Shown here: one piece after another, positions 37,258-50,236 of the stretch | Position numbering within the stretch: the first letter of the stretch is position 1 | Layout of the letters: each line of letters begins with the position of its first letter | Source of the DNA: Emticicia sp. CRIBPO | GTDB lineage: Bacteria; Bacteroidota; Bacteroidia; Cytophagales; Spirosomataceae | Assembly: GCF_009905725.1 (NCBI RefSeq) | Contig: NZ_JAAAKV010000002.1 | Coordinates: 620,001-684,000, forward strand | DNA length: 64,000 nucleotides | Direction of reading: 5' to 3' | Notes under the pieces: model-generated | Told to the model about the DNA's origin: nothing | Seen by the model: the letters and a program-made list of their open reading frames with translations, nothing else | Databases searched by the model: none | Position numbers and translations under genes: made by a program

Positions 37258-37716
37258 ATGCCTTTCCCTTCCATTTTTGAACCCAAAACGACAGAAGATC
37301 TCGTAAAACGGATCAATCAGCTTACGCCCGCTACTGCCCCGCTTTGGGGAAAAATGAATGTGTCGCAGATGCTGGCCCATTGCTGTGTTTCGTACGACCA
37401 GATTTTTGGTGATCAGACCGGCCGGCCGCCTTTGCTGATGCGGAAATTGCTCAGTCTGCTGATCAGGAAGAAGTTAACGAATGAATCTCCCTATCCGAAA
37501 AACGGACGTACGGCCCCGGCTTTCATCATCAGCGATGAGCGTGATTTTGAAACCGAAAAGAGCCGCCTTGTCAATTATATCTCACGGGTTGAGAAACTCG
37601 GAGCATCACATTTTTCAGACAGGGAGTCGTTTTCTATGGGTAAACTGACTACACGGGAATGGAACAACCTGTTATACAAACACCTCAACCATCACCTGAG
37701 TCAGTTTGGAGTTTAA
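37258..37716 (+). CDS. DUF1569 (DinB-like) family protein
   Basis: A 152-residue protein of the DUF1569 family, part of the DinB/YfiT-like four-helix bundle superfamily. Typical blocks: SIFEPKTTEDLVKRINQL, PLWGKMNVSQMLAHCCVSYD, MRKLLSLLIRKKLTNE, and the final LTTREWNNLLYKHLNHHLSQFGV with histidines at metal-site positions (H in MLAHC and in HLNHHLSQF). The function of DUF1569 proteins is not established. ATG at 37258 is preferred to a TTG at 37228. Its TAA overlaps the convergent amylase stop (TTAA, 37713-37716). Confidence 0.85.
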   Translation: MPFPSIFEPKTTEDLVKRINQLTPATAPLWGKMNVSQMLAHCCVSYDQIFGDQTGRPPLLMRKLLSLLIRKKLTNESPYPKNGRTAPAFIISDERDFETEKSRLVNYISRVEKLGASHFSDRESFSMGKLTTREWNNLLYKHLNHHLSQFGV

Positions 37717-39557
37717 TTCACTTTCAATATTCTGAAACCTGAACCCGGTACTGTGATGCTTTCTTTTGCCGGGAATGTTTCGTCTGTCAACACATCTTTA
37801 AAGCCAGCGGCTCCAGCTAATACCTCGGTGTATGAACCCGGATCAACCGTCTTAGCCGATTCGTTTTTATTGAAAATGATGAGGTGCCTTTCTTTGTTAT
37901 TCGTTCTCGTGTAAGCATAAATGCCATGTTGAGGAGCAAACTGAATCAGTTTTCCATCATGAATGGAAGTGGCGGTTTTCCTCCAGTTCAGCAGTTTTTT
38001 CAGGAAGGCCATGAATTCCTTTTCCTGACCGGTGAGGTTTTGCCCGGTGAATGCGTTGCGGACATCGCCTTCCCAACCCCCCGGAAAATCGCCGCGGATT
38101 TCACCATGGGCATCACTTTTCGGATTCGTCATCCCGATTTCAGTACCGTAGTACAGCTGAGGCACTCCCCTGGTGGTCAGAAAATAAGCCAGTCCCATTT
38201 TAAATAAGGCAGGATTTTCTTTTACCTGGGTAAAGAAACGGCTCATGTCGTGATTGTCAGGAAAAACAACAAGATTATCCGGACCTGCATACAAAAAGTC
38301 TTCGGCCAGTGTCTGGTAAATTTTCGTCAGGCCCTGGTTGTATTTTTTATCGTCCTCGTTCAAAGCCTCCGCCACAGCATTTTGTAAAGGAAAATCCATC
38401 AGGCCCGGAAGATAAGACACATAGCCGTCATGATTTTTCTTCCCCTTCTGCCAGTAAGAAACGATAGAAGGCTTCAGCGACCATTCCTCGCCCACCATGT
38501 TCAGACTTGGGTATTCTTCCAGCATTCTCCGGCTCCACTCAGTCAGGAATTGCTTGTCGGAGTAAGGATATGTATCAATTCTTAACCCGGCCAGTCCGGC
38601 GTATTCGATCCACCAGATGGTATTTTGAATCAGGTATTTGGACATAAACGGGTTCCGTTGGTTCAAATCAGGCATACTGGGCACAAACCAGCCGTCGACA
38701 TGATTTTTAGCGTCTGCTTTTGAGGCATGAATGTCCTGGTGGGTTTCTCTTTTGTGACTGGTGGGACTGAATTTCCCCTCAAAGTTGATCCAGTCTTTGG
38801 AAGGAAGGTCCTTCATCCACCAATGGGCTATGCCGCAGTGGTTCAACACCACATCCATGATCAGCTTGAGGCCCTTTTCCTTAGCTTTTACAGATAACTC
38901 TCTGAACTCCTCATTGGTCCCGTACCGCGGGTCGGTCTTGTAAAAATCACTGATGGCGTAACCGTGATAGGTAACGGCTTTCTGGTTGTTTTCCATGAGC
39001 GGCATATTCCAGATGGTGGTGTATCCCATGTCCCGGATAAAATCCAGGTGATTAATCACCCCCCTGATGTCGCCGCCATGGCGGCCGTCTTTGTTGCTTC
39101 TGTCTGTTTTCTCTATTGTGTCAGGCGTATTGTCATTCGCAGGATTTCCGTTGGCAAACCTGTCGGGAGTGATCAGGTAAATGACATCCGAATTGTCATA
39201 ACTTTTCCTTTGGGCTGATCCTTTCTCACGGGCATTCAGTTTGAAATTGAATTTCTCAGCTTTCTGACCGGGTTTTGTAAAACTGATAACCACTTCGCCG
39301 GGCACAGTGGCCTGGGCAATTTTCAGGTCAATAAAAAGGTAATTCGGATTTTCAGTTTTATTTACTTTCATCAGGGATACACCTTTGTAACTTAGCGAAG
39401 GCATATAAGTGGCGATATCTTTGCCATACACCAGGATCTGTACAGCAGGATCTTTCATCCCAACCCACCAGCTGGAAGGCTCGGCTTTCTGTATGACGTT
39501 CTGGGCAAAAAGCGGCGAAACAAGGCCGCATAATATCAGTAAGATTAGTTTTTTCAT
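37713..39557 (-). CDS. GH13 alpha-amylase/neopullulanase-type enzyme (SusA-like)
   Basis: A 614-residue enzyme cleaving alpha-1,4-glucosidic bonds. Signal peptide about 1-18 (LFAQ), N-terminal cyclomaltodextrinase-type Ig domain (about 20-115), then the GH13 barrel: DVIYLITPDRFANG, DVVLNHCG, the nucleophile D328 in LRIDTYPYSD, the acid/base E357 in MVGEEWS, and D437 in FPDNHDMSR, and a C-terminal beta domain. This layout is that of Bacteroidota SusA/neopullulanase enzymes, acting in the periplasm on maltodextrins imported by SusCD. ATG at 39557 lies 4 bp after the upstream amylase stop, so the two are co-transcribed. Confidence 0.93.
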   Translation of the reverse strand: MKKLILLILCGLVSPLFAQNVIQKAEPSSWWVGMKDPAVQILVYGKDIATYMPSLSYKGVSLMKVNKTENPNYLFIDLKIAQATVPGEVVISFTKPGQKAEKFNFKLNAREKGSAQRKSYDNSDVIYLITPDRFANGNPANDNTPDTIEKTDRSNKDGRHGGDIRGVINHLDFIRDMGYTTIWNMPLMENNQKAVTYHGYAISDFYKTDPRYGTNEEFRELSVKAKEKGLKLIMDVVLNHCGIAHWWMKDLPSKDWINFEGKFSPTSHKRETHQDIHASKADAKNHVDGWFVPSMPDLNQRNPFMSKYLIQNTIWWIEYAGLAGLRIDTYPYSDKQFLTEWSRRMLEEYPSLNMVGEEWSLKPSIVSYWQKGKKNHDGYVSYLPGLMDFPLQNAVAEALNEDDKKYNQGLTKIYQTLAEDFLYAGPDNLVVFPDNHDMSRFFTQVKENPALFKMGLAYFLTTRGVPQLYYGTEIGMTNPKSDAHGEIRGDFPGGWEGDVRNAFTGQNLTGQEKEFMAFLKKLLNWRKTATSIHDGKLIQFAPQHGIYAYTRTNNKERHLIIFNKNESAKTVDPGSYTEVLAGAAGFKDVLTDETFPAKESITVPGSGFRILKVN

Positions 39558-39561
39558 GATT

Positions 39562-40953
39562 TCAGAATTTGTTAAGTGACCAGACGGTATAACTTCTGGC
39601 CGGCACTTCAAGAGTCACTCTTCCGGTATTATCCGTTTTAAGGACTGTTGAGGTATTTTGTGAATAATCAAGCAGGGTGGCGTTTTTCCAGTTGGTAGAT
39701 ACCGACTGTTTTTGGGCCACATTGCTGTTGTTGATAAAAACCACCAGGCCGGGCACTTTGGCGTCTCCCGTGCGTGAGGCTATGTATTTTTCATTGTCGG
39801 CAAACAGCACACCGGTTTTCCCCCTGGCCAGGGAGCGGTTGATCAGTATCAGCCTTTCCAATTTGGCTTTATCCAGTTGCTGCTCATAATCCAGGTAGAA
39901 AATACAGGGATAGCCTTCATGCGTCAGGATGTAGGCATACGCCAGCATTTTGGCTTCTTTCGTACCAATCCTGTTACTCTGATTGGTTTCTTTCTCGGTG
40001 TCATGGTTGGTGACAAAGGTGACAGCTTTGGCAGCGTTGCTTTTGATCAGTGTCTTCCGGTCCTTCAGAATGGTCATGTTATTTCCTTCCAGGGCTTGTT
40101 CAAGAGCATAGAAAGTAGAAAAGTCAAACACATTGGTAGTACTTTGGGTACTGTAGTTTTGCAGGGCATCGGGATTGCCGTCCCAGAACTCGCTCACCGA
40201 AAAACCACCCACCTCAGTCATCCAGGCTTTCACCACAGAAGGATCAAATCCCTTGACATAATCAAAACGCCAGCCGTCAAACTTCAGGGTGTTTTTGTAA
40301 TATTTAGCCACCGAACTGTCGGACTTCCAGAACCATTTCTGCACATTGGCCTGGTCATGACAAACGTCCTGCTCTTCAAAAAACAGGGCCTCCGCATCTT
40401 TCTCGTGGGTTTTGTTGGGATGATAGTCTTCGTAAGTCCTGAAGAATCGTCCCGATTTCGGCCTGAATTTAGTGTAGGTGTTTTTATTCCGGTAAGGATT
40501 AAATTCAAGTTCCCCGCCGCTATTATGGTTCAGCACGATGTCGGCTATCACTTCGATTTTGCTGGCGTGGGCTTTGGTGATGAAGTTTTCCAGCTCAGCC
40601 CTTGAGCCAAACCGGGTCTCAGTGGTACCCATCTGGTCATATTCGCCCAGGTCAAAATAATCCATCGGGTCATAACCCATGGAATAGCCCCCGGACATAC
40701 CTTTCGAAACAGGCGGAAGCCAGACCCTGTCTACGCCCATCTTTTTCCAGCCTTCCAGTTTCGGGCTGACGGTATTCCACCACTCTCCTCTCGGTTCCAC
40801 ATCCCAGTAAAAAGCCTGCATCATCACCCCTCTTTCTTCGGTATGAAGATTCAGATCAACCAATGCCGTTGACTCTTCTCCCAGTTCGTTTTTCTCACAG
40901 GAACTGATCATCAGAAAAATCCCTAGAACATATAATAAAGCGTGTAATTTCAT
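39562..40953 (-). CDS. GH13 alpha-amylase lipoprotein (SusG-like role)
   Basis: A 463-residue lipoprotein (lipobox MISSC, C19 lipidated) with a GH13 catalytic domain. Catalytic triad: D231 in GWRFDYVKG, E255 in VSEFWDG, D318 in VTNHDTE; domain start VMMQAFYWDVEPRGEWWNTV and ADIVLNHNSGG resemble the bacterial liquefying amylase subgroup (GH13_5/6-like). Surface exposure, as for SusG, is inferred from lipidation and from the acidic residues after the cysteine (CEKNELGEE). It would make the first cuts in starch or glycogen. It is separated from the susE-like gene by a terminator-like hairpin, so amylase expression may be attenuated relative to the transporter. Confidence 0.93.
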   Translation of the reverse strand: MKLHALLYVLGIFLMISSCEKNELGEESTALVDLNLHTEERGVMMQAFYWDVEPRGEWWNTVSPKLEGWKKMGVDRVWLPPVSKGMSGGYSMGYDPMDYFDLGEYDQMGTTETRFGSRAELENFITKAHASKIEVIADIVLNHNSGGELEFNPYRNKNTYTKFRPKSGRFFRTYEDYHPNKTHEKDAEALFFEEQDVCHDQANVQKWFWKSDSSVAKYYKNTLKFDGWRFDYVKGFDPSVVKAWMTEVGGFSVSEFWDGNPDALQNYSTQSTTNVFDFSTFYALEQALEGNNMTILKDRKTLIKSNAAKAVTFVTNHDTEKETNQSNRIGTKEAKMLAYAYILTHEGYPCIFYLDYEQQLDKAKLERLILINRSLARGKTGVLFADNEKYIASRTGDAKVPGLVVFINNSNVAQKQSVSTNWKNATLLDYSQNTSTVLKTDNTGRVTLEVPARSYTVWSLNKF

Positions 40954-41070: not shown

Positions 41071-42381
41071 CTATCTTTTGACCATTTTATAAGTCGGGCT
41101 TGACGCCACGCTGAAATCAAGGGTAATGTCATAAACTCCGGCTTTGACTACGATGTTGGCTCCGCCTGCTTCAAGGCTGCCGTTGGCTCCGTCGTCACCA
41201 TAGTTTACCGCCCAGTCATCATTCTGACGGAATTTTACTTCCCCGTCTTTCAGGGTGATGCCCTTCAGTACCCAGTTCCCTTCTTTGAAGAAATCAGGGG
41301 TAAACTTGGCATCAGGCCCATCCCAGCCGTTGGCGGTGGCACTGCCCACAATACCATAAATCTTGATCGGTTCAATGGTATATTTAAGGCTCTTGAAATC
41401 AACTGTCACCAGGTAGGTACCTGCCGTTACTTTGATGTTATCTCCGTTTGATTCCAGTATTTTATCTGCTCCGGTGTCACCGTAGTTGGTGCCCCAGTCA
41501 TTGTTCTTACGGATTTTAACATCACCATCTTTCAACGTTACGATCAGCCTCCACTGGTCGGAAGAAGGATCATAGAAGAACGGTGCATCCGGGCCATCCC
41601 AGCCGTTCGGCGTTGCACTGCCCACCAATCCCCAACCGAACTTCTCGATGGTATAGCTCAGGGCTGCAGTATTGAAAGTGATTTTATAGGTTCCTGCTTT
41701 TACCGCAATGTTGGCTCCGTTTACTTCCAGGCTGCCGTTGGCTCCGTCGTCGCCATAGTTCAGGTCCCATTTGTTGTTCGAACGGATCTTCACTTCACCG
41801 TCTTTCAACGTCACATAAGCCACAAGGGTATTGGCCTGGTCTGTGGTATAGAACGGCATATCAGGGCCATCCCAACCGTTGGTCGTGGCACTGCCCACGA
41901 GTCCCCAGATGGTAGAAAGGTCCAGCTTATCCAGATAAGCCGTGGCTTTCAGAGGCATCACGGTAGAGGCCAGAACAGTAGAGGTGCCCAGCTTGGATTC
42001 CACTTTCAAGTCCAGGTCAGCGGCTGTACCAGCCACAATACCCAGGCTCAGCAGCAGTGAGTTCAGTTCTGCTACCTTGAAAGTTTTGGTCAGGTTGACA
42101 CCCGTAGATACGGCAACGGCTTTTGAAAAATTCCCGCCTTTTTTATCAAACAGGATGGTATAACCGGCTCCCGCATTGAAACCGTAATCAGGCTTGGGCC
42201 AGGTAACAGTCAAGGCGTCTTTGGCTGCATTTTCTTTTGTCAGAACGACATTGGAAGCCGATAAAGTCACTGAGGGAATCGCTCCCTGGTTCAGCACCGG
42301 CTTCAGGAAATCATCCTCGCATGAACCTAAAAAGGCCACTGCTGATAATAATATGATGAATCTGTTAAATATTCTTTTCAT
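41071..42381 (-). CDS. SusE/SusF-like outer membrane glucan-binding lipoprotein
   Basis: A 436-residue surface lipoprotein (lipobox FLGSC, C21). An N-terminal SusE-type Ig domain (about 30-145) is followed by three tandem binding modules (about 159-248, 250-340 and 342-436), each beginning WGLVGSAT-NGWDGPD or YGIVGSAT-NGWDGPD and containing LKDGEVKIR and NYGDDGAN. In SusE/SusF of Bacteroides, equivalent modules bind starch. The high similarity between modules suggests recent duplication. The gene follows susD by 19 bp in the operon. Confidence 0.9.
   Translation of the reverse strand: MKRIFNRFIILLSAVAFLGSCEDDFLKPVLNQGAIPSVTLSASNVVLTKENAAKDALTVTWPKPDYGFNAGAGYTILFDKKGGNFSKAVAVSTGVNLTKTFKVAELNSLLLSLGIVAGTAADLDLKVESKLGTSTVLASTVMPLKATAYLDKLDLSTIWGLVGSATTNGWDGPDMPFYTTDQANTLVAYVTLKDGEVKIRSNNKWDLNYGDDGANGSLEVNGANIAVKAGTYKITFNTAALSYTIEKFGWGLVGSATPNGWDGPDAPFFYDPSSDQWRLIVTLKDGDVKIRKNNDWGTNYGDTGADKILESNGDNIKVTAGTYLVTVDFKSLKYTIEPIKIYGIVGSATANGWDGPDAKFTPDFFKEGNWVLKGITLKDGEVKFRQNDDWAVNYGDDGANGSLEAGGANIVVKAGVYDITLDFSVASSPTYKMVKR
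41074..41907 (-). repeat. Three tandem intragenic repeats encoding SusE-type modules
   Basis: Three copies of about 270-285 bp within the SusE-like gene. Short nucleotide blocks are conserved in all three, such as the segments encoding NGWDGPD and VKAGTY, and copies 1 and 3 share longer runs (LKDGEVK, GDDGANGSLE). Confidence 0.85.
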
Positions 42382-42400: not shown

Positions 42401-43981
42401 TTAGTATCCTGTATTTTGTTTCAAGTTGGGATTGGCTACCAGATCAGCCGCCGGGATCGGGAATAACTTTAGGTTGTCACTCACACCGCGTCCGTCTTTG
42501 ATACCGCCTTTCCACTGCCAGATGTATCCGCCTGCCGTGAATTTATTGAAGCGGATCAGGTCGGTACGACGGTGTCCTTCCCAGAACAATTCCCTTGCCC
42601 TTTCGTCCAGGATAAAATCAAGGTTGATAGAAGTCACATTGCCGGTTGTACCCTTGTAGGCTCTCTGACGCAGCTGGTTTATATAACCCACCGCTGTGGT
42701 TACATCACCACCTGTACCTCCTCTCAGCACCGACTCCGCATAGATCAGGTAGATGTCAGCCAATCTGAATAGAGGAAAATCTGTATCCACAAACGATTCC
42801 TGCAGGTTGGAACCTATCGCCCCGGTTGAGGTTACGTTTTTGAATTTCTTCATGGCATAACCGTCCGCAAAAGTGAAGATATCATTGATGTCCAGTTTTT
42901 GTCCGTCGGTATGGAACATGGCTCTTGAGTCTGTTTTACCCGTTATGTCCGTGAATTTACTGACAAAAGCAGAGGTAGTTCTGACACCTGACCAGCCGCC
43001 GTTGATACCGAACTCAGCCGGGTTCATGGTGCCGCCTACCGGAGCATGTACAAGGAAAGTCATCCCGCCATAGGTTTTGGTGTTTTGTCCGTCAAACCTG
43101 ATCGGGAAAATGATCTCAGGCGACGTATGGTTATCCGCCAGGAACAAACCCTGGTAGTTGGTATGCAGGGTGTAACCAGCTCCAATCACTTTCTTGCTGT
43201 AATCAATCGCTTCTGTATATTTCGGTGTACCGATGTAAACCTCCGCGTTCAGGTAAAGTTTGGCCAGCAATGTCCACACGGCTGCCCTGTCGGCTCTTCC
43301 GAATTCGTTTTGTTTAGGCGAAGGCAACTCGTTTTCAATGGCTTTCAGCTCAGACTCCACATAGGCAAAAATCTCTGCCCTGCTGCCTTGTTTCGGCAGG
43401 AATGAACCCACAGCGTCCTGCTCGGTCACGAAAGGCACACTGCCGAACATGTCAATGCCATGGTAATAACTCAAAGCCCTCAGGAATCTTGCTTCAGCCC
43501 TGTAGGTTGTAAATTCTGTACCTGTCAGGTTTCTTTCTTTCAGTTTGGCATCACTCGCTTCCCTGATCAGCTCATTACACAAGGTAATCTGATAGAAAAT
43601 ACGGTTGTACATGGTGGTGATAAACTCGTTCGAAGAACTCCAGTCCATGTCGTGGTAATCCGGTAAACTACCGTCGTTCCAGCCGATCACGGCCTCGTCG
43701 GTGGTCAGCTCCTGGGCAAACCAGTACTGACGCAGGTAAGATGAAAATCCTTCATCAATACCGCTGATGTCAGGTTGACCTGCCGGGCCTTGTTGTCCGC
43801 TGACAGCCAGACCGGCATAAAGTTTGGCCAGCACTTTTTTATAATTGGCCGGATCGTTATAAACCGACGCCGAGGTTACTTCAATAAAAGGCTTGCGGTC
43901 AAGATCTCCGATACAGGAATTCAGAACGGTCATGCCGATGACCAAAGCCCCTGTTTTTATGAATCTGTTAATATTTCTCAT
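42401..43981 (-). CDS. SusD-family glycan-binding lipoprotein
   Basis: A 526-residue RagB/SusD protein. Lipobox at C23 (VLNSC); TPR-like alpha-helical core with the family blocks YKKVLAKLYAGLAVSG, AEARFLRALSYYHGIDMFGSVP, GRADRAAVWTLLAKLYLNAEVY, the C-terminal FPLFRLADIYLIYAESVLRG, YINQLRQRAY, DFILDERARELFWEGHRRTDLIRF and the closing LFPIPAADLVANPNLKQNTGY (in parts). It forms the lid of the SusC channel and binds the oligosaccharide. Start ATG 43981, 36 bp after the susC stop. Confidence 0.95.
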   Translation of the reverse strand: MRNINRFIKTGALVIGMTVLNSCIGDLDRKPFIEVTSASVYNDPANYKKVLAKLYAGLAVSGQQGPAGQPDISGIDEGFSSYLRQYWFAQELTTDEAVIGWNDGSLPDYHDMDWSSSNEFITTMYNRIFYQITLCNELIREASDAKLKERNLTGTEFTTYRAEARFLRALSYYHGIDMFGSVPFVTEQDAVGSFLPKQGSRAEIFAYVESELKAIENELPSPKQNEFGRADRAAVWTLLAKLYLNAEVYIGTPKYTEAIDYSKKVIGAGYTLHTNYQGLFLADNHTSPEIIFPIRFDGQNTKTYGGMTFLVHAPVGGTMNPAEFGINGGWSGVRTTSAFVSKFTDITGKTDSRAMFHTDGQKLDINDIFTFADGYAMKKFKNVTSTGAIGSNLQESFVDTDFPLFRLADIYLIYAESVLRGGTGGDVTTAVGYINQLRQRAYKGTTGNVTSINLDFILDERARELFWEGHRRTDLIRFNKFTAGGYIWQWKGGIKDGRGVSDNLKLFPIPAADLVANPNLKQNTGY

Positions 43982-44017: not shown

Positions 44018-46996
44018 TTAGAATCCAATATTGAGACCCAGCGTGAATACCCTCGGACGCGGATAGAAATTGTTGTCGATACCTCCGCTGATCTCAGGAT
44101 CAAGTCCTTTGTATTTCGTGATCACCAGGGCATTCTGGATATTTCCGCTCAAAGTAGCATCTGCTTTTTTATTGAATATCTTGCCGAGGCTGTATCCGAA
44201 ATTGATGTTGTCAATCCTGAAGAAAGAAGCATTCTGCAGATAGTAATTGCTGAAATACTGGCTGTTTGTAAACCCGCTTTTCAAAGCATCTGTCGTCACA
44301 TTGGTCAGGTATGGGGTAGAATTCGGTCTGAAAACACCTGCCTGGGAATTCACGTTGTTGTAATTATAATTCCCAAAATTGGCTCTTGACACAAATCCGG
44401 CAGTGAATTTTCCGAAAGTAAACTGTGAAGTAAAACCAAGGAACACATCAGCCTGAGGGTCTTTCATACGCACCCGGTCGTCCGGCGTGATTACACCGTC
44501 TCCGTTCATTTCTTCATACACACCCTCGATCGGTTTTCCGGCAGCATCATACACCTGGTTGTAAACAAAATAAGTGTTGGTCGGGTAACCTACCGTATGA
44601 ATCTGAACCGTATTACCCACACCACCAGAAATACCTCCGGTCAGTACGCCCGGGAAGGTCGGGTCAGCTACTTTGGTCAGGTTGGTAATCGTATTTTTGT
44701 TATAAGTAATGTTAAATCCTAAGTCCCAGCTGAATTTCGGGCGAATCACAGGAGAAGTATTCAGGGCAAATTCCACCCCGCTGTTTTCAATATTACCCAC
44801 ATTGGTCAGGATCTGGTTGGTCAGGTTGGAACCTGCAGGAACCGGGATTACGCTCAGCAAGTCTTTTGTTTCTCTCATGTAATAGTCTAAACTACCTGAA
44901 ATCCTGGCTGTTTTCAGGGCGAAATCAATACCGGCGTTATAAGTTCGTGTCTCTTCCCACTTGATGTTGGCATCATAACCTTCCGGTCTCAAAGTCTGGA
45001 TAAAAGTATTGCCAAACTGATACTGGGCCGTGCTCTGGCTCAAGGTATACCTGGCCAGGTACGGATAGTCATTCGGGTTGTCGACCCCGATATCCTGCTG
45101 ACCTGTCACCCCATACCCTAATCTCAGCTTAAGGTCTGACAGTACCGCTGAGTTTTTAAGAAATCCTTCCTCGGAGATTTTCCATGCCAGGGCCGCAGAT
45201 GGGAACAAGCCCCATCTGTTGTCAGGCGAGAATCTCGAGGATCCGTCACGACGTAAGGTAAAGGTTAACAAATATTTGTCAAGCAAAGCATAGTTGGCTC
45301 TGCCATAAAACGATACCAGTGTATTTTGTGTCTTGTACCTGAAATCCGTGAAAACCTCACCGTTCAGGTTTTTGTCAAGATTGGTGTTTTCTCTCAGGAA
45401 GTCCTGGTAAGAATATCCTCCCATGATGTCGATACGGCTGCCGATGGAAGGCAGGTCTTTGACATAATTCAGGTAAAACTCCAGGGTTTTGTTGTTCTTG
45501 TTCTGTGTATACACCAGGTCCTGACCGTTTCTGTTGTAAGCAATTGACGCACTGTCAGAAACATAGTTGATCCCGTCACTTTTTGAAACATCATAGCCTA
45601 AGTTCAGGTTGGCTCTAAGATCAGGCAGAAAGTGGAATTTATAATCGAAAACAATGTTACCGATACTTCTCTGCACGTCGCTGCTGTTGTTTCTCGACTC
45701 CAGTAAGGCCAGCGGGTTTCTCGGGGCCAGGGTATTCGGCTTGCCGGTCGCAGGGTCCAGCCACTCAAAATAACCACTGAACCTGTCTGTTTTGGAATAA
45801 ACCGGTTGGGTGGGGTCAAAGAAAACCGCCGCTCCGATGGCTCCCTGGTCTGCAAACCTGTTGTTGGTGATCGAGCCTTTCAAATTCACATCCACTTTCA
45901 GGTGATTGTCAAGGAACATCGGTGACAAAGCTACTGAAGCAGACGTACGGCCAAGGTTCGAAGTCTTAAGTATACCGTTCTGGTTCAGATAACCCAAAGA
46001 AACCCTGTAAGGCATCTTTTTCACGGATCCGCTGATGCTCAGGTTGTTGTCTGAGGTAATGGCAGTTTTATAAATCTGGTCAGCCCAGACCGTATTTTCT
46101 GTTCCCAGCAAAGCCTGCTGTGCTTCACTTCCCCTGGTAGTGATCATCTCACGGAACTGGTCAGCAGAAAGCGTTTCAATATTTTTGGTACGGATCGAAG
46201 TAGAAAGCAAAGTGCTGAAATTCACACTCATTTTACCACTTTTGGTCCCTTTTTTTGTCGTGATGATGATGACCCCGTTAGATGCCCTTGAACCATAAAT
46301 GGCTGTTGCAGAAGCATCTTTCAATACCGTGAAAGTCTCAATATCATTAGGATTGATCAGACTCAGGGCATTCGGAGAACCTTCAATTTTATTTTTATCC
46401 AGGGGCACACCGTCAAGGACAATCAGCGGATCGTTGTTCGCCGTCAGCGATGAACCTCCTCTGATCCTGATGGTGCTTCCGCTACCCGGTGCACCACCGT
46501 TTGAGGTGATCTGCACACCAGCCAGTTTACCTGAAACCAATTGCTCGGGTGTGGTAATCTGACCTTTCACAAAGTCTTCAGAACTCACCGAAACGATAGA
46601 ACCTGTTAAATCTTTTTTCTTCTGGGATCCGTAACCGATCACGACCACCTCACCCAGGGTCTGGGCATTGTCAGCCAGGGTTACATTAATCACCGACTGG
46701 TTTCCGACTACGATTTCCTGGGAAATCTTACCGATAAAACTAAAAACCAGGGTAGCAGTTTCCTTAGCCATGATCTGGTACTCACCGTTGATGTCGGTCT
46801 GCGTTCCTGTCAGTTCGCCTTTGACCTGTACGGTTACGCCGGGCATACCCGAGCCGTCAACGCTGTCAGAAACCTTGCCTTTCACAGTTCGCTGGGCGAA
46901 GGCTACGCCTGCAGACATCATCAGGGATGCCACCAAGCCGATCGTCAGAAAACTTCTCCGGAAAAAGCCCGGGAAATTTGTAATTGTTTTTTGCAT
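44018..46996 (-). CDS. SusC/RagA-family TonB-linked oligosaccharide importer
   Basis: A 992-residue SusC-type TonB-dependent transporter: signal peptide 1-35 (VAFA|QR), carboxypeptidase-D-like domain about 36-115 (GKVSDSVDGSGMPGVTV), TonB box LGEVVVIGYGSQKKKDLTGS, plug about 125-240 (IRIRGGSSLTANNDPLIVLDG, in parts; ATAIYGSRASNGVIIITTKKG), then the barrel ending PRPRVFTLGLNIGF, a standard C-terminal strand with terminal Phe. It imports oligosaccharides with SusD. Neighbours suggest maltodextrins, but the first gene of the operon is a GH53 endogalactanase, so beta-galacto-oligosaccharides remain possible. Confidence 0.95.
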   Translation of the reverse strand: MQKTITNFPGFFRRSFLTIGLVASLMMSAGVAFAQRTVKGKVSDSVDGSGMPGVTVQVKGELTGTQTDINGEYQIMAKETATLVFSFIGKISQEIVVGNQSVINVTLADNAQTLGEVVVIGYGSQKKKDLTGSIVSVSSEDFVKGQITTPEQLVSGKLAGVQITSNGGAPGSGSTIRIRGGSSLTANNDPLIVLDGVPLDKNKIEGSPNALSLINPNDIETFTVLKDASATAIYGSRASNGVIIITTKKGTKSGKMSVNFSTLLSTSIRTKNIETLSADQFREMITTRGSEAQQALLGTENTVWADQIYKTAITSDNNLSISGSVKKMPYRVSLGYLNQNGILKTSNLGRTSASVALSPMFLDNHLKVDVNLKGSITNNRFADQGAIGAAVFFDPTQPVYSKTDRFSGYFEWLDPATGKPNTLAPRNPLALLESRNNSSDVQRSIGNIVFDYKFHFLPDLRANLNLGYDVSKSDGINYVSDSASIAYNRNGQDLVYTQNKNNKTLEFYLNYVKDLPSIGSRIDIMGGYSYQDFLRENTNLDKNLNGEVFTDFRYKTQNTLVSFYGRANYALLDKYLLTFTLRRDGSSRFSPDNRWGLFPSAALAWKISEEGFLKNSAVLSDLKLRLGYGVTGQQDIGVDNPNDYPYLARYTLSQSTAQYQFGNTFIQTLRPEGYDANIKWEETRTYNAGIDFALKTARISGSLDYYMRETKDLLSVIPVPAGSNLTNQILTNVGNIENSGVEFALNTSPVIRPKFSWDLGFNITYNKNTITNLTKVADPTFPGVLTGGISGGVGNTVQIHTVGYPTNTYFVYNQVYDAAGKPIEGVYEEMNGDGVITPDDRVRMKDPQADVFLGFTSQFTFGKFTAGFVSRANFGNYNYNNVNSQAGVFRPNSTPYLTNVTTDALKSGFTNSQYFSNYYLQNASFFRIDNINFGYSLGKIFNKKADATLSGNIQNALVITKYKGLDPEISGGIDNNFYPRPRVFTLGLNIGF

Positions 46997-47022: not shown

Positions 47023-48144
47023 TTAAAAAGAGTCCTTAAAAAATTTGAATACAGGCAGGGCCTCATTATCATTGGCGGCATCAAAAAACGCCGCGTTTTC
47101 CCAATGTGAGCCTTCCCCCCACTGTGTTTTGCATTTGGTGCTGATCCAGGCGGGCTCCCAGTAAATGATACCCTCAGCCCCGGCTTCCCTGCAGACTTTT
47201 TTGAGGTCTACCATAAAACTCAGCTGGCCTTCTATCGAAATCGGGTAGCCTTTAATGCCGGCTTCCCCGTCCAGTACATTGTTGGCTTTGTCAAATTCCT
47301 TGTTGGTATAAGGGTACCCGGTTTCCACAATCATGACCCGTTTGGCGTAAGTCTTTTTCAGGGTTTTAATGGTATTCTGTAGTTTCAGGAAATCGTATTT
47401 CGACCATTTAGGGTAATAACTCAGGCCAATCCAGTCGTAATTGACCACCTGATGGGCCAGGGCCTGGTTGAACCACGGCTCAGCGTTTTCAGGCTGAGCT
47501 ACGTGGAGCATGGTTTCTATTTGTTGATTGTATTTTTTATTGAAAGCCTTCACCGCCTCAATGCCCTTGTTCAGCAGGAAAGCGTTTCTTTTCCAGTCGA
47601 TGTTTCCCTTATTGAGCGAGTCGGGATGTTGAATGATGCCTATATTGGTTTCATTGCCGATCTGCACCATCTCAGGTAACAACTTCTTGCTGTTTAAACT
47701 CTGTAGGGTTGAAAAAGTGTAGTTATAAACTGAATCTCCGAGCACCGCCAGGCTGTTTATTTTTTGCCAGGCTTTCGGCATCACCTGTTTGGAAGGATCG
47801 GCCCAGTCGTCCGAATAATGAAAATCAAGCAGCACCGCCTGTTTCAGATCTTTGGTCCTGCGGATCGATTTCTCTACATCTGACAGTGTCGAATAGCTGG
47901 TAAAGTCAGGCGAATGCCAGAGTCTGAGACGGACAATATTGGAGCCTTCGGAAGCAAACAATTCATAAGGATCTACCGGCTGTTTGTTTTTCCTGAACAC
48001 CCCTCCGCAATCTTCCAGTTCATTGACATAGGACATATCAGCCCCCAGGTAAAAGGAAGGAGCAGGTGAAGATGACTTCAGGCAGGAAGCCAGCAAAACC
48101 AAAGCAGAAAACAAAGACAACCTCAGGGCAATGGTACTAATCAT
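47023..48144 (-). CDS. GH53 endo-beta-1,4-galactanase lipoprotein
   Basis: A 373-residue lipoprotein (lipobox LLASC, C21) of glycoside hydrolase family 53, which endo-cleaves beta-1,4-galactan side chains of pectin (rhamnogalacturonan I). Family blocks: FYLGADMSYVNELED, NIVRLRLWHSP, VLLDFHYSDDWADPSKQ, the acid/base E165 in VQIGNETN, and the nucleophile E274 in VMIVETGYPYT; C-terminal EGIIYWEPAWI. It is the first gene of the susCDE operon (26 bp before susC). Its substrate class does not match the GH13 enzymes at the other end of the locus, which is a notable feature of the cluster. Confidence 0.94.
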   Translation of the reverse strand: MISTIALRLSLFSALVLLASCLKSSSPAPSFYLGADMSYVNELEDCGGVFRKNKQPVDPYELFASEGSNIVRLRLWHSPDFTSYSTLSDVEKSIRRTKDLKQAVLLDFHYSDDWADPSKQVMPKAWQKINSLAVLGDSVYNYTFSTLQSLNSKKLLPEMVQIGNETNIGIIQHPDSLNKGNIDWKRNAFLLNKGIEAVKAFNKKYNQQIETMLHVAQPENAEPWFNQALAHQVVNYDWIGLSYYPKWSKYDFLKLQNTIKTLKKTYAKRVMIVETGYPYTNKEFDKANNVLDGEAGIKGYPISIEGQLSFMVDLKKVCREAGAEGIIYWEPAWISTKCKTQWGEGSHWENAAFFDAANDNEALPVFKFFKDSF

Positions 48145-48170: not shown

Positions 48171-48178
48171 CAAAAGTA
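48171..48178 (-). promoter_or_regulatory. Candidate -7 element of the GH53-susCDE operon
   Basis: On the minus strand TACTTTTG matches TAnnTTTG, 26 bp before the GH53 start. No TTG lies 19-21 bp upstream; absence of a -33 box fits a promoter that needs an activator, here probably the AraC-type protein encoded just upstream. Confidence 0.55.
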
Positions 48179-48275
48179 GAGGTAATACAAAGGCCAGTCG
48201 CCCCACATTGCATTATTCTAACAAATAATTGAATTGTTTCAATTAGCTGTCTATCAGATAGTTAATCACACCACA

Positions 48276-48300
48276 AGTACCATTTTAATAAAATGGTACT
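48276..48300. promoter_or_regulatory. 25-bp perfect palindrome between regulator and GH53 operon
   Basis: Arms AGTACCATTTTA and TAAAATGGTACT around a single A. It overlaps the stop codon of the AraC-type regulator and lies about 100 bp upstream of the GH53 -7 element. In the direction of the regulator gene it lacks a T-tract, so it may be an operator rather than a terminator; a hairpin role remains possible. Confidence 0.5.
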
Positions 48301-50236
48301 AAGTTTTTCCGTTTTTTACCTGGTCAAAGTAGTCCCGGGGAGTCTGGTCTGTGATTTTTTTGAAGGAACGGTTGAAGGCGGTCTTGGAATTGAAGCCAAC
48401 TTCGTAGGCCAGGCTCAGAAAAGTCAGGTGATGGTTTTTAGGATCAGACACCATCCGCTTGAACTCGTCAATCCGGTAAGAGTTAATGTAGTCGAAGAAG
48501 TTTTTATGCAGGTGGTCATTGATCACTTTCGAAACCAGGTGCGGTTGTAGCTTGATCTGAACGGCAAGTTCATTAAGGGTCAGTTTCGGGTTAATGTAGG
48601 GCTTGTTTTCGGCCATGTGTGCTTCCAGTTTTTCCAGGTAGGGCAACAGGTTTTCGTCTGAAGTATCCTCCTGTTTCGGTGACGACGGGCTTAAGCCGTG
48701 CCCGATTTCGGTTTCCAGTACATCGTCAAAAATCGAAATGGTCCGCGGAGCAGCTTTGAAGGTCTCTGACTGGTGTATCGCAAAATAGCCCAGGAAATAG
48801 GGTATGATGGAAAATGCCAGCCAGGTGATATCGATACTGTTTTCGGTGATGGAGACAATATCAAGCGTAAAAATCCTGCCGATAAATGCAATAAAAAATG
48901 AAAACGCCCACAGGCAGAGGCAGATAAACTGGATAATCAGCACCGTATTCAGGTAGTTCAGGTTCTGATCATAAGAAAGGTTGGTCTGGAACTCAAGCCG
49001 GTATGTTTTGATGGTTTTCCTGAAAAGATTCCAATAGTAGGCGTTCCATAAAAAACCCAGTACACCCGAAATCAGGAATAAGCGGATGATGCCCTGCTTC
49101 TGGTTCATGACGTCCAGCAGAAAATTCTTATCCGTATTGAGCATAAACGGCAGATAAGCAAAAAACTGGATAAGGGCCGGTACAAAATGCAGGTACCACC
49201 TGGAAGGCAACGACCTGACGTTAAACAGTAATTTGATCAGGTAAAAATAAAAGACCGGGGCATACAGAAAATAGATGAAATCAGAAAAGAGGATAAGCCT
49301 CGGAAACTGGTTGACAAACAACTGGTAGTTGCTCATCAGGTACAGCAAAATCGCCACCGAAGAGATAACAATGGAAAAAATCAGCCAGCGGTTGGCGTCA
49401 ATGTTATTCGACTGAATAGACGGGATGGCAATGATCAGCAAAATGCCCTGGAAAACGGAAAAAATCAGCAGCAGGTCATACAGCGAGAAAAAATGGAGCG
49501 TCCCCATGAGGTCTTCCCACCCTTCTATGTCTACGGTAACCGATTTATTGTTGATCTTCGAATCGCGGTTGATGATCCTGTTCGGCCTGGCCTTCCCGGT
49601 ACTCCGGGCTTCCACCGACGGCCAGCCTCCTCTGGTAAATTTATATTCTATTTTTTCCAGGTCGGAATAAATGATGGTCTGGTAAGTACCGTCAATTTTC
49701 CTCTTCAGCTGATAATAAGCGTTGCCCGGGTCCCAGTTGTTAAAGTTACCCGTCACAAAAATCCGGGCATCCTGGGGCGTATTTTCAGGAATATTCTTAA
49801 TAATAAAAGTATAAGCCACCTGTTTCTCCCAGCCGATGATGGTGTTGGAGATCAGTCCTGAGGGATTGATGGTGCGTTCATAAGTCCTGTTGGGCAGGGT
49901 TTCTCCCTGAGGCGTACCTTCCACCAGCATCCAGGTACCCTGCGTAAACTTGTACTCAAATTTATCAGGAGCATCTTCCAGTTCTATATAATACTTATTG
50001 TTCTCTCCTTTTTTCAAAGCAAACCTGGGGTCACCTGGGTTCCAGTTGTTAAAATCAACGGCAATAAAAAGCGGGTTATCCGGTAATAAAGGCGTGGCAA
50101 CCAGCTCGACCTCCACCCTCACCTGGGCCTTCACAACGGTGATCCACGTGATAAAAAACCCTATAGATAGAGTCAAAATTCTGATGTACTGCCGGATTTC
50201 TGATAGCATGTGTTTGGAATAATTACTGTGTTCCAT
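48299..50236 (-). CDS. Membrane-spanning AraC-type regulator with two glucan-binding-like domains
   Basis: A 645-residue protein. In order: an uncleaved or cleavable N-terminal hydrophobic segment (about 17-38); two related beta-sandwich modules (about 40-136 and 140-240), each with F-N-N-W-(N/D)-P-G and E-Y-K-F-T-(Q/R)-G-x-W, the pattern of CBM20/CBM48-type starch-binding domains; seven predicted membrane helices (about 248-480); and a C-terminal AraC HTH (about 535-640; LTLNELAVQIKLQPHLVSKV, LAYEVGFNSKTAFNRSFKKI). With an exported N-terminus and seven helices, the HTH falls in the cytoplasm. It would sense alpha-glucan outside and regulate the adjacent sus-like operon, a functional analogue of SusR with a different build. 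Start ATG 50236; ATG 50209 is an alternative. Confidence 0.85.
   Translation of the reverse strand: MEHSNYSKHMLSEIRQYIRILTLSIGFFITWITVVKAQVRVEVELVATPLLPDNPLFIAVDFNNWNPGDPRFALKKGENNKYYIELEDAPDKFEYKFTQGTWMLVEGTPQGETLPNRTYERTINPSGLISNTIIGWEKQVAYTFIIKNIPENTPQDARIFVTGNFNNWDPGNAYYQLKRKIDGTYQTIIYSDLEKIEYKFTRGGWPSVEARSTGKARPNRIINRDSKINNKSVTVDIEGWEDLMGTLHFFSLYDLLLIFSVFQGILLIIAIPSIQSNNIDANRWLIFSIVISSVAILLYLMSNYQLFVNQFPRLILFSDFIYFLYAPVFYFYLIKLLFNVRSLPSRWYLHFVPALIQFFAYLPFMLNTDKNFLLDVMNQKQGIIRLFLISGVLGFLWNAYYWNLFRKTIKTYRLEFQTNLSYDQNLNYLNTVLIIQFICLCLWAFSFFIAFIGRIFTLDIVSITENSIDITWLAFSIIPYFLGYFAIHQSETFKAAPRTISIFDDVLETEIGHGLSPSSPKQEDTSDENLLPYLEKLEAHMAENKPYINPKLTLNELAVQIKLQPHLVSKVINDHLHKNFFDYINSYRIDEFKRMVSDPKNHHLTFLSLAYEVGFNSKTAFNRSFKKITDQTPRDYFDQVKNGKT

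Follow-up and report, generated by a model that had tools for sequence, protein, structure and literature searches.

A candidate alpha-glucan sensor of Emticicia sp. CRIBPO combining starch-binding-like modules, seven membrane helices and an AraC-type helix-turn-helix, with a conserved DNA element ahead of the adjoining sus-like operon

The 64,000-nucleotide stretch of the Emticicia sp. CRIBPO genome that was analysed here (the window) carries a sus-like polysaccharide operon, and it raises the question of how a sugar outside the cytoplasm could be reported to the promoter of that operon. A preliminary description of the sequence proposed that the gene directly upstream encodes a one-component glucan sensor spanning the inner membrane, with two modules like those of CBM20/48 starch-binding domains, seven hydrophobic helices and an AraC-type helix-turn-helix (HTH). 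The 645-aa minus-strand open reading frame (ORF) is present at 48299-50236, and the sus-like operon with GH13 enzymes does lie downstream on the same strand, in the order GH53, SusC, SusD, SusE/F and two GH13 genes (Table 1); the GH13 enzymes had been named earlier, without the GH53 enzyme. Our results indicate that the protein is probably a membrane one-component activator of an alpha-glucan operon, in which the CBM-like modules sense outside and the AraC-type HTH acts inside on two DNA sites, A and B.

Table 1. Features of the regulator gene, the proposed target operon and the DNA between them (positions in the window)
Feature	Position	Strand	Basis
Regulator ORF, 645 aa: signal/anchor helix, two CBM-like modules, seven helices, AraC HTH	48299..50236	-	
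N-terminal helix, residues 5-34, putative signal peptide or anchor	50135..50224	-	hydropathy and AlphaFold2
CBM-like module 1, about residues 38-139 (W65, K96, W102, N116)	49820..50125	-	
CBM-like module 2, about residues 140-245 (W168, K199, W205, N219)	49502..49819	-	
Seven transmembrane helices, residues 252-488	48773..49483	-	hydropathy and AlphaFold2
AraC-type HTH, residues 531-644, behind a low-confidence linker (about 496-527)	48305..48646	-	
Site A, 23-bp palindrome GTACCATTTTATTAAAATGGTAC, proposed operator	48277..48299	-	
Site B, half-site ATGTGGGGCGAC, 18 nt before the -7-like box, proposed activator site	48197..48208	-	
-7-like box TACTTTTG ahead of the GH53-SusC operon	48171..48178	-	
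GH53 glycosidase gene, first of the proposed target operon	47023..48144	-	
SusC-like TonB-dependent transporter	44018..46996	-	
SusD-like lipoprotein	42401..43981	-	
SusE/SusF-like protein	41071..42381	-	
GH13 alpha-amylase	39562..40953	-	
GH13 cyclomaltodextrinase-type enzyme	37713..39611	-	

In a Pfam scan, the AraC-type HTH was the only domain of the regulator to score above a cut-off (HTH_18, 46.4 bits against 33.6; HTH_AraC, 28.2 against 26.6), and this family-level match at residues 558-638 assigns the protein to AraC/XylS. NCBIfam gave HTH matches only, weak and far below their cut-offs, and no match for the module pair. The full-length AlphaFold2 model had a mean pLDDT of 85.6 and a pTM of 0.63, and solved AraC-type domains were among its Foldseek matches at E values of 0.0013 and up. 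Hydropathy and the model agreed on the seven helices and on the N-terminal helix. Among 60 CBM-bearing rows, eight hydropathy peaks (signal plus seven) were counted in 47, seven in 7 and nine in 6, and the CBM-less controls showed 4-7 peaks, with seven in 12 of 21. Both the model and positive-inside counts placed the HTH in the cytoplasm and not outside: in short loops, lysine plus arginine was higher on the inner than on the outer side in 32 of 46 rows, with 3 ties and the reverse in 11, a pattern that modestly supports a cytoplasmic HTH. Modules outside and HTH inside is the topology consistent with either fate of the N-terminal helix, cleaved or retained. No Pfam membrane family matched the regulator. 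A relationship between the seven helices and GPCRs or rhodopsins was considered and dropped, because the Foldseek matches of the full model to such proteins were too weak for the claim (E >= 0.017), and no match of that model to any protein reached E 0.001.

The motifs quoted earlier as starch-binding patterns are present in both modules (FNNWNPG and EYKFTQGTW in the first, FNNWDPG and EYKFTRGGW in the second), and alignment of the copies gives 37% identity over 87 residues (E 1e-16). CBM-family matches in relatives and Foldseek both bore out the starch-binding-like character of the N-terminal half. As to profiles of the CBM20/48 type, the expected similarity appeared in relatives, which matched AMPK1_CBM, X25, CBM53 and CBM48, and not at family level in the window protein, which stayed under the Pfam cut-offs and so outside those families (AMPK1_CBM, 16.6 bits against 26.8; CBM_48, 18.7 against 22.4). 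At E<=1, AMPK1_CBM matched 39 of 45 relatives scanned one by one (best E 6e-7), X25 matched 31 (9e-8), CBM53 21 (1e-5) and CBM48 nine (1e-7); Chibby, an unrelated family, also weakly matched 19 of the 45. The module sequence profile reached a Sus amylase at E 0.002 and solved AMPK domains at E 0.36-1.5, and only at the latter values do the AMPK glycogen residues align, in part, with the profile. The AlphaFold2 model of the module pair, made on 45 aligned sequences (pLDDT 90.1, pTM 0.61), had 31 Foldseek matches at E<=0.001, 27 of them to starch- or glucan-active proteins and four to pilins or serine proteases, with low TM-scores over the two-module model (0.25-0.37 among the 31). The glucan-type matches included the CBM26 pair 6b15, the STBD1 CBM20 with maltotetraose (8x8k), CGTases, SpuA and the Bacteroides ovatus Sus amylase BoGH13ASus.

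The residues W, K, W and N, which we take to be the glycogen-binding ones of AMPK, were conserved in 45, 42, 44 and 35 of the 45 relatives in module 1, and in 45, 45, 45 and 43 in module 2. The pair is predicted to have a starch-binding fold of the CBM20/26/48 type with sugar-stacking residues. Since this predicted fold and the residues fit while the window protein lies below the curated scores, we call the modules CBM20/48-like and place them in no named family. They resemble CBM20, CBM48 and CBM26 modules and the AMPK glycogen-binding domain in predicted fold and in the four residues; those domains, however, belong to an enzyme or a kinase subunit, whereas the modules described here score below the Pfam cut-offs and form a proposed sensor domain. 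Their copy number in the regulators varies from one (L085, L103) to three (L091, L105). The same module was also seen elsewhere: in 3-5 tandem copies in predicted lipoproteins or secreted proteins of Bacteroidales and Cytophagales genomes (L109, L110, L112, L113, L115, L117, L118, L120), ahead of an esterase-like protein in the own genome (L013, 658-1848, minus strand), and in other frames of about 350-420 aa across genomes of the same family.

Orthologues of the regulator were found in 69 of 200 genomes of the same family (one, G137, shows the membrane half only), and its occurrence is therefore more than chance. A phylum-wide search at E<=1e-30 found it in at least 4 of 395 genomes, counting its own; this is a lower bound, because scoring was limited to four candidates per genome among the matches listed. 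The locus survey, which listed up to 80 loci, comprised 57 orthologous ones (L051-L107). These span Spirosomataceae and neighbours, Chryseolinea, Daejeonella, Saprospiraceae, Flammeovirga, Reichenbachiella and Flavobacteriaceae, and the named strains among them belong to Dyadobacter, Runella, Flectobacillus, Maribacter and Zobellia; the organism names of L063 and L083 are not borne out by the tree. Two divergent Bacteroidales members were also found (L108, L116), and the regulators of the Flavobacteriaceae clade are 30-34% identical to the window protein. The own genome has further membrane AraC genes without the modules. Twenty-one such CBM-less loci served as controls, 11 from the own genome (genes of 343-399 aa) and 10 from the own genus; two of the 21 loci were shorter than 14 kb. 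Shorter AraC matches of the own genome and a G073 match in a 290-aa frame were left out. In a quick IQ-TREE on the membrane and HTH columns, a single branch (SH-aLRT 92) separated the 60 CBM-bearing rows from 22 CBM-less rows; the tree is unrooted, and seven of its end branches were flagged as long.

A survey for the same architecture beside other sus loci had been suggested earlier, and the architecture recurs at sus-like alpha-glucan loci in several families. Among the 57 listed loci, many of which end at contig ends, a SusC+SusD pair was found in 32, GH13 in 36, either of these in 43 and GH53 in eight; in the 36 loci of at least 20 kb the corresponding counts were 27, 24, 31 and 4, and five of these long loci (L065, L079, L091, L093, L105) had neither the pair nor GH13. 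The GH13 profile was built from matches in the surveyed loci themselves. The CBM-less paralogue loci had GH13 in 0 of 21 and the pair in 2 of 21, and SusC without SusD was matched in three of them (L141, L182, L183). P-values calculated for these contrasts (for the pair counts by a Fisher test), and for the genome counts given below, ignore shared ancestry. The CBM-less membrane AraC genes of L131 and L178 stand near a SusC/SusD pair without GH13, and such regulators may serve other polysaccharide loci. At many listed loci the regulator is ahead of SusC; in Maribacter and Zobellia it lies between a SusC-D-E-GH13 block and another GH13 gene, in Aquirufa-like loci it is divergent from SusC, and in Reichenbachiella and some Saprospiraceae it adjoins an amylase gene without SusC. 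An amylase with CBM20 or CBM26 is nearby in the SusC-less loci L084, L088 and L097. Alpha-glucan degradation is the recurrent theme of these loci, and GH53 comes and goes. GH53, the beta-1,4-galactanase family, heads or adjoins the operon in the window and at L051-L054, L067, L078, L081, L083 and L216, in several genera, and the proposed operator described below often stands ahead of those GH53 genes too. No mention of GH53 in such an alpha-glucan operon was found in titles and abstract openings of the open-licence PMC literature.

When the gaps between regulator and operon were aligned, two conserved blocks appeared amid otherwise diverged DNA. The consensus, derived from 17 loci together with the window, gives site A as the palindrome GTRCCAYTTTATAAARTGGYAC; site B, AARTGGRRCGAY, is a direct repeat of the right arm of A and in most loci lies 18-19 nt ahead of a TACTTTTG-like box, which we assign, as an assumption, to the -7-like promoter type. 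The first base of site A in the window is the last base of the regulator stop codon. With up to 5 mismatches allowed, the A+B pair was found in 30 of the 57 listed loci, against 2 of 57 for the mirror control and 1 of 21 CBM-less controls; only 13 of the 30 were unseen, as 17 had served to read the consensus. The gene next to the best pair is SusC, GH53 or GH13 in 29 of the 30, and a 111-aa ORF at the contig end in the other (L078). The right arm of A and site B are 68, 76-77, 80-83 or 91-96 bp apart in 29 of the 30 loci and 113 bp in one; these spacings were inspected by eye for helical phasing, and none is claimed. The pair of L088 is doubtful because its B lies 15 nt before the predicted start with no box, and in L074 and L076 TACGTTGC replaces the box. 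The palindrome stands ahead of the operon even where the regulator is 0.7-4.7 kb off (L054, L074, L076) or divergent (L081, L083, L106). In the Flavobacteriaceae clade a compact relative, GGTCATTTTATAAAATGAAGCGAA, was found in all 6 loci, 60-106 nt ahead of SusC or GH13 (nine matches), only L101 and L102 being independent since the pattern was read from L098, L099, L100 and L104; it had no match in the other 51 listed loci, nor had its mirror.

Genome-wide patterns showed that the DNA element co-occurs with the regulator. The palindrome pattern of site A and the B-plus-box pattern, the latter written to admit the window's own site, each matched one place in the 6.06-Mb genome, namely the one ahead of the window operon. 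Across the family, the B-plus-box pattern was found in 40 of 69 regulator-bearing versus 7 of 131 regulator-less genomes, and the mirror pattern in 4 of 69 versus 9 of 131; some of the 29 regulator-bearing genomes in which the pattern is absent have a variant box, as in L053, L085 and L087. Four regulator-bearing genomes have sites on a contig that does not carry the regulator, and a site A with 2-4 mismatches stands 79-92 bp ahead of each. These sites precede GH53-SusC (L216), a GH13 gene and SusC-D-E-GH13 (L217), SusC (L218) and a GH13 gene (L219); L216 and L218 come from contigs so short (5.6 and 3.4 kb) that the regulator is possibly near these two sites, and L217 and L219 lie inside long contigs. 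The proposed operators at L219 6752 and L217 7257 stand ahead of separate GH13 genes whose products, of 904 and 942 aa, have secretion tails, and the regulon can therefore hold more than one operon. Other matches fell inside ORFs, both in regulator-bearing genomes (G115 and G077; L220, L221) and in the regulator-less G051, G127, G074 and G031, and that of regulator-less G020 was ahead of no glucan gene that we found. Six of the seven regulator-less genomes with the pattern were inspected, G072 being left out. The sixth, the draft genome G128, in which no regulator was found, has a first site that precedes SusC-D-E (L222) and a second inside an ORF (L223). The matches in G051, G127, G074, G031 and G020 and the second site of G128 were judged to be chance.

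The mechanism that we favour can be given in a few steps. In the periplasm, the two modules would bind incoming alpha-1,4-glucan or maltooligosaccharide; the preliminary description spoke of polysaccharide, which is uncertain as the ligand, and imported oligosaccharides are what a sensor in this compartment would be more likely to encounter. Binding would rearrange the seven-helix domain and then, via the linker, the cytoplasmic HTH. The activated regulator, probably a dimer, would bridge palindrome A and half-site B, which are presumed to be its own sites. Site B occupies what would be the place of the -33 element, so binding there would recruit RNA polymerase, and activation from B would turn on the GH53-SusC-SusD-SusE-GH13-GH13 operon.

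The sensing step could be read in two other ways. The modules could serve as an anchor or structural cap, with the seven-helix domain itself sensing a small sugar, for instance maltose. There are paralogues that have a similar membrane and HTH half but no CBM modules, from which it follows that the membrane half can function on its own, and the number of modules varies from one to three. We regard this as rather unlikely, since the ligand-type residues of both modules are nearly always kept, which a mere cap would not need, and since the CBM-bearing rows keep to one side of one branch. A sensor of beta-1,4-galactan or of a mixed polymer, at a galactan locus that has amylases too, is suggested by the GH53 gene at the head of the window operon and by GH53 genes near the regulator elsewhere, directly behind it in L078, L081 and L083. 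It is nevertheless improbable, given GH53 in 8 versus GH13 in 36 of the 57 listed loci, the CBM20 or CBM26 amylases of the three SusC-less loci, and the alpha-glucan binders that make up the sugar-binding proteins among the best fold matches.

The step at the promoter can be questioned as well. Nothing in the anatomy of the protein speaks against a repressor that is released by glucan, but site B stands in most loci 18-19 nt before the -7-like box, in the place of the -33 element, which is a usual site of AraC-type activators, and we give repression little credence. The conserved element might also terminate transcription of the regulator gene or be bound by a different regulator, for in the window and several loci the palindrome is found at the regulator stop codon or shortly after it and could form a hairpin. 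That the element precedes the operon where the regulator is distant, divergent or on another contig, and that it tracks the presence of the regulator, makes this account quite implausible. Alpha-glucan sensing by the modules and activation from B thus remain our preferred reading.

The regulators of Bacteroides polysaccharide loci have been classed as SusR-like, hybrid two-component systems (HTCS) and ECF (PMC3878776, PMC6874557, both as excerpted). Like the regulator described here, the SusR family are membrane regulators of starch or dextran loci in these excerpts. The preliminary description had set the protein apart from SusR by architecture, and the comparison agrees: the SusR-type proteins of two Bacteroides-like loci have DUF6377, one strong membrane helix at about residue 330, no CBM and no AraC HTH, whereas the regulator has seven helices, no DUF6377 and no significant BLASTP match to either (E 0.04 and 1.1). 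These two proteins (L262, beside GH97-SusC-SusD; L263, beside SusC-SusD) were picked by position and size, BT3705 itself not being among them, and no SusR-type protein was found in a third Bacteroides-like region, L261. The excerpt of PMC3878776 gives the SusR HTH no similarity to known families, and the HTH found here is clearly of the AraC type. On the other hand, predicted SusR sites consist of two boxes whose centres are 67 or 77 bp apart (PMC3878776, PMC6874557, as excerpted), an unusually long spacing, and the A-B spacing of 68-96 bp (right arm of A to B) resembles it. By analogy, the regulator may act on the promoter in the manner of SusR and yet not be a SusR; the mechanism of SusR is called undefined in the excerpt of PMC6874557.

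HTCS, as outlined in the excerpted sources, likewise join a periplasmic sugar sensor and a cytoplasmic AraC HTH in one polypeptide at polysaccharide loci. Assignment to HTCS was rejected, the regulator having seven helices and no histidine kinase or receiver match (Pfam, E<=1), as was assignment to ECF (no domain match in the Pfam scan) or to 7TMR-DISM (no match to that membrane domain, Pfam, E<=1). The nearest kind, likened by architecture, is that of the AraC-type membrane one-component regulators of Saccharophagus degradans, which have 6-7 TM regions, stand beside polysaccharide-degrading genes and were proposed to have a sensing role (PMC2386152, as excerpted). The regulator has the same combination, seven helices and an AraC HTH beside polysaccharide genes; those of Saccharophagus degradans belong to another phylum and to cellulose genes, and the excerpted text of PMC2386152 mentions no sugar-binding module. 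What appears new beside this kind are the added starch-binding modules and the proposed operator: no description of a CBM-7TM-AraC protein or of such an operator was found among the matches listed from the open-licence PMC literature.

On balance, these proteins may well form a fourth class of regulators of Bacteroidota polysaccharide loci, beside SusR, HTCS and ECF: seven-helix receptors that would read alpha-glucan by periplasmic starch-binding modules and act directly at a palindrome-plus-half-site operator, without phosphorylation, sigma factor or partner. The seven-helix domain would then serve bacteria as a receptor module of general use, and the CBM-less paralogues would read other signals. 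The finding offers a starch regulator whose sensor, membrane part, DNA-binding part and probable operator can each be pointed to, and the matched pair of sensor and promoter might lend itself to starch-inducible expression. The family makes the transfer of a sugar signal through seven helices to DNA directly testable.
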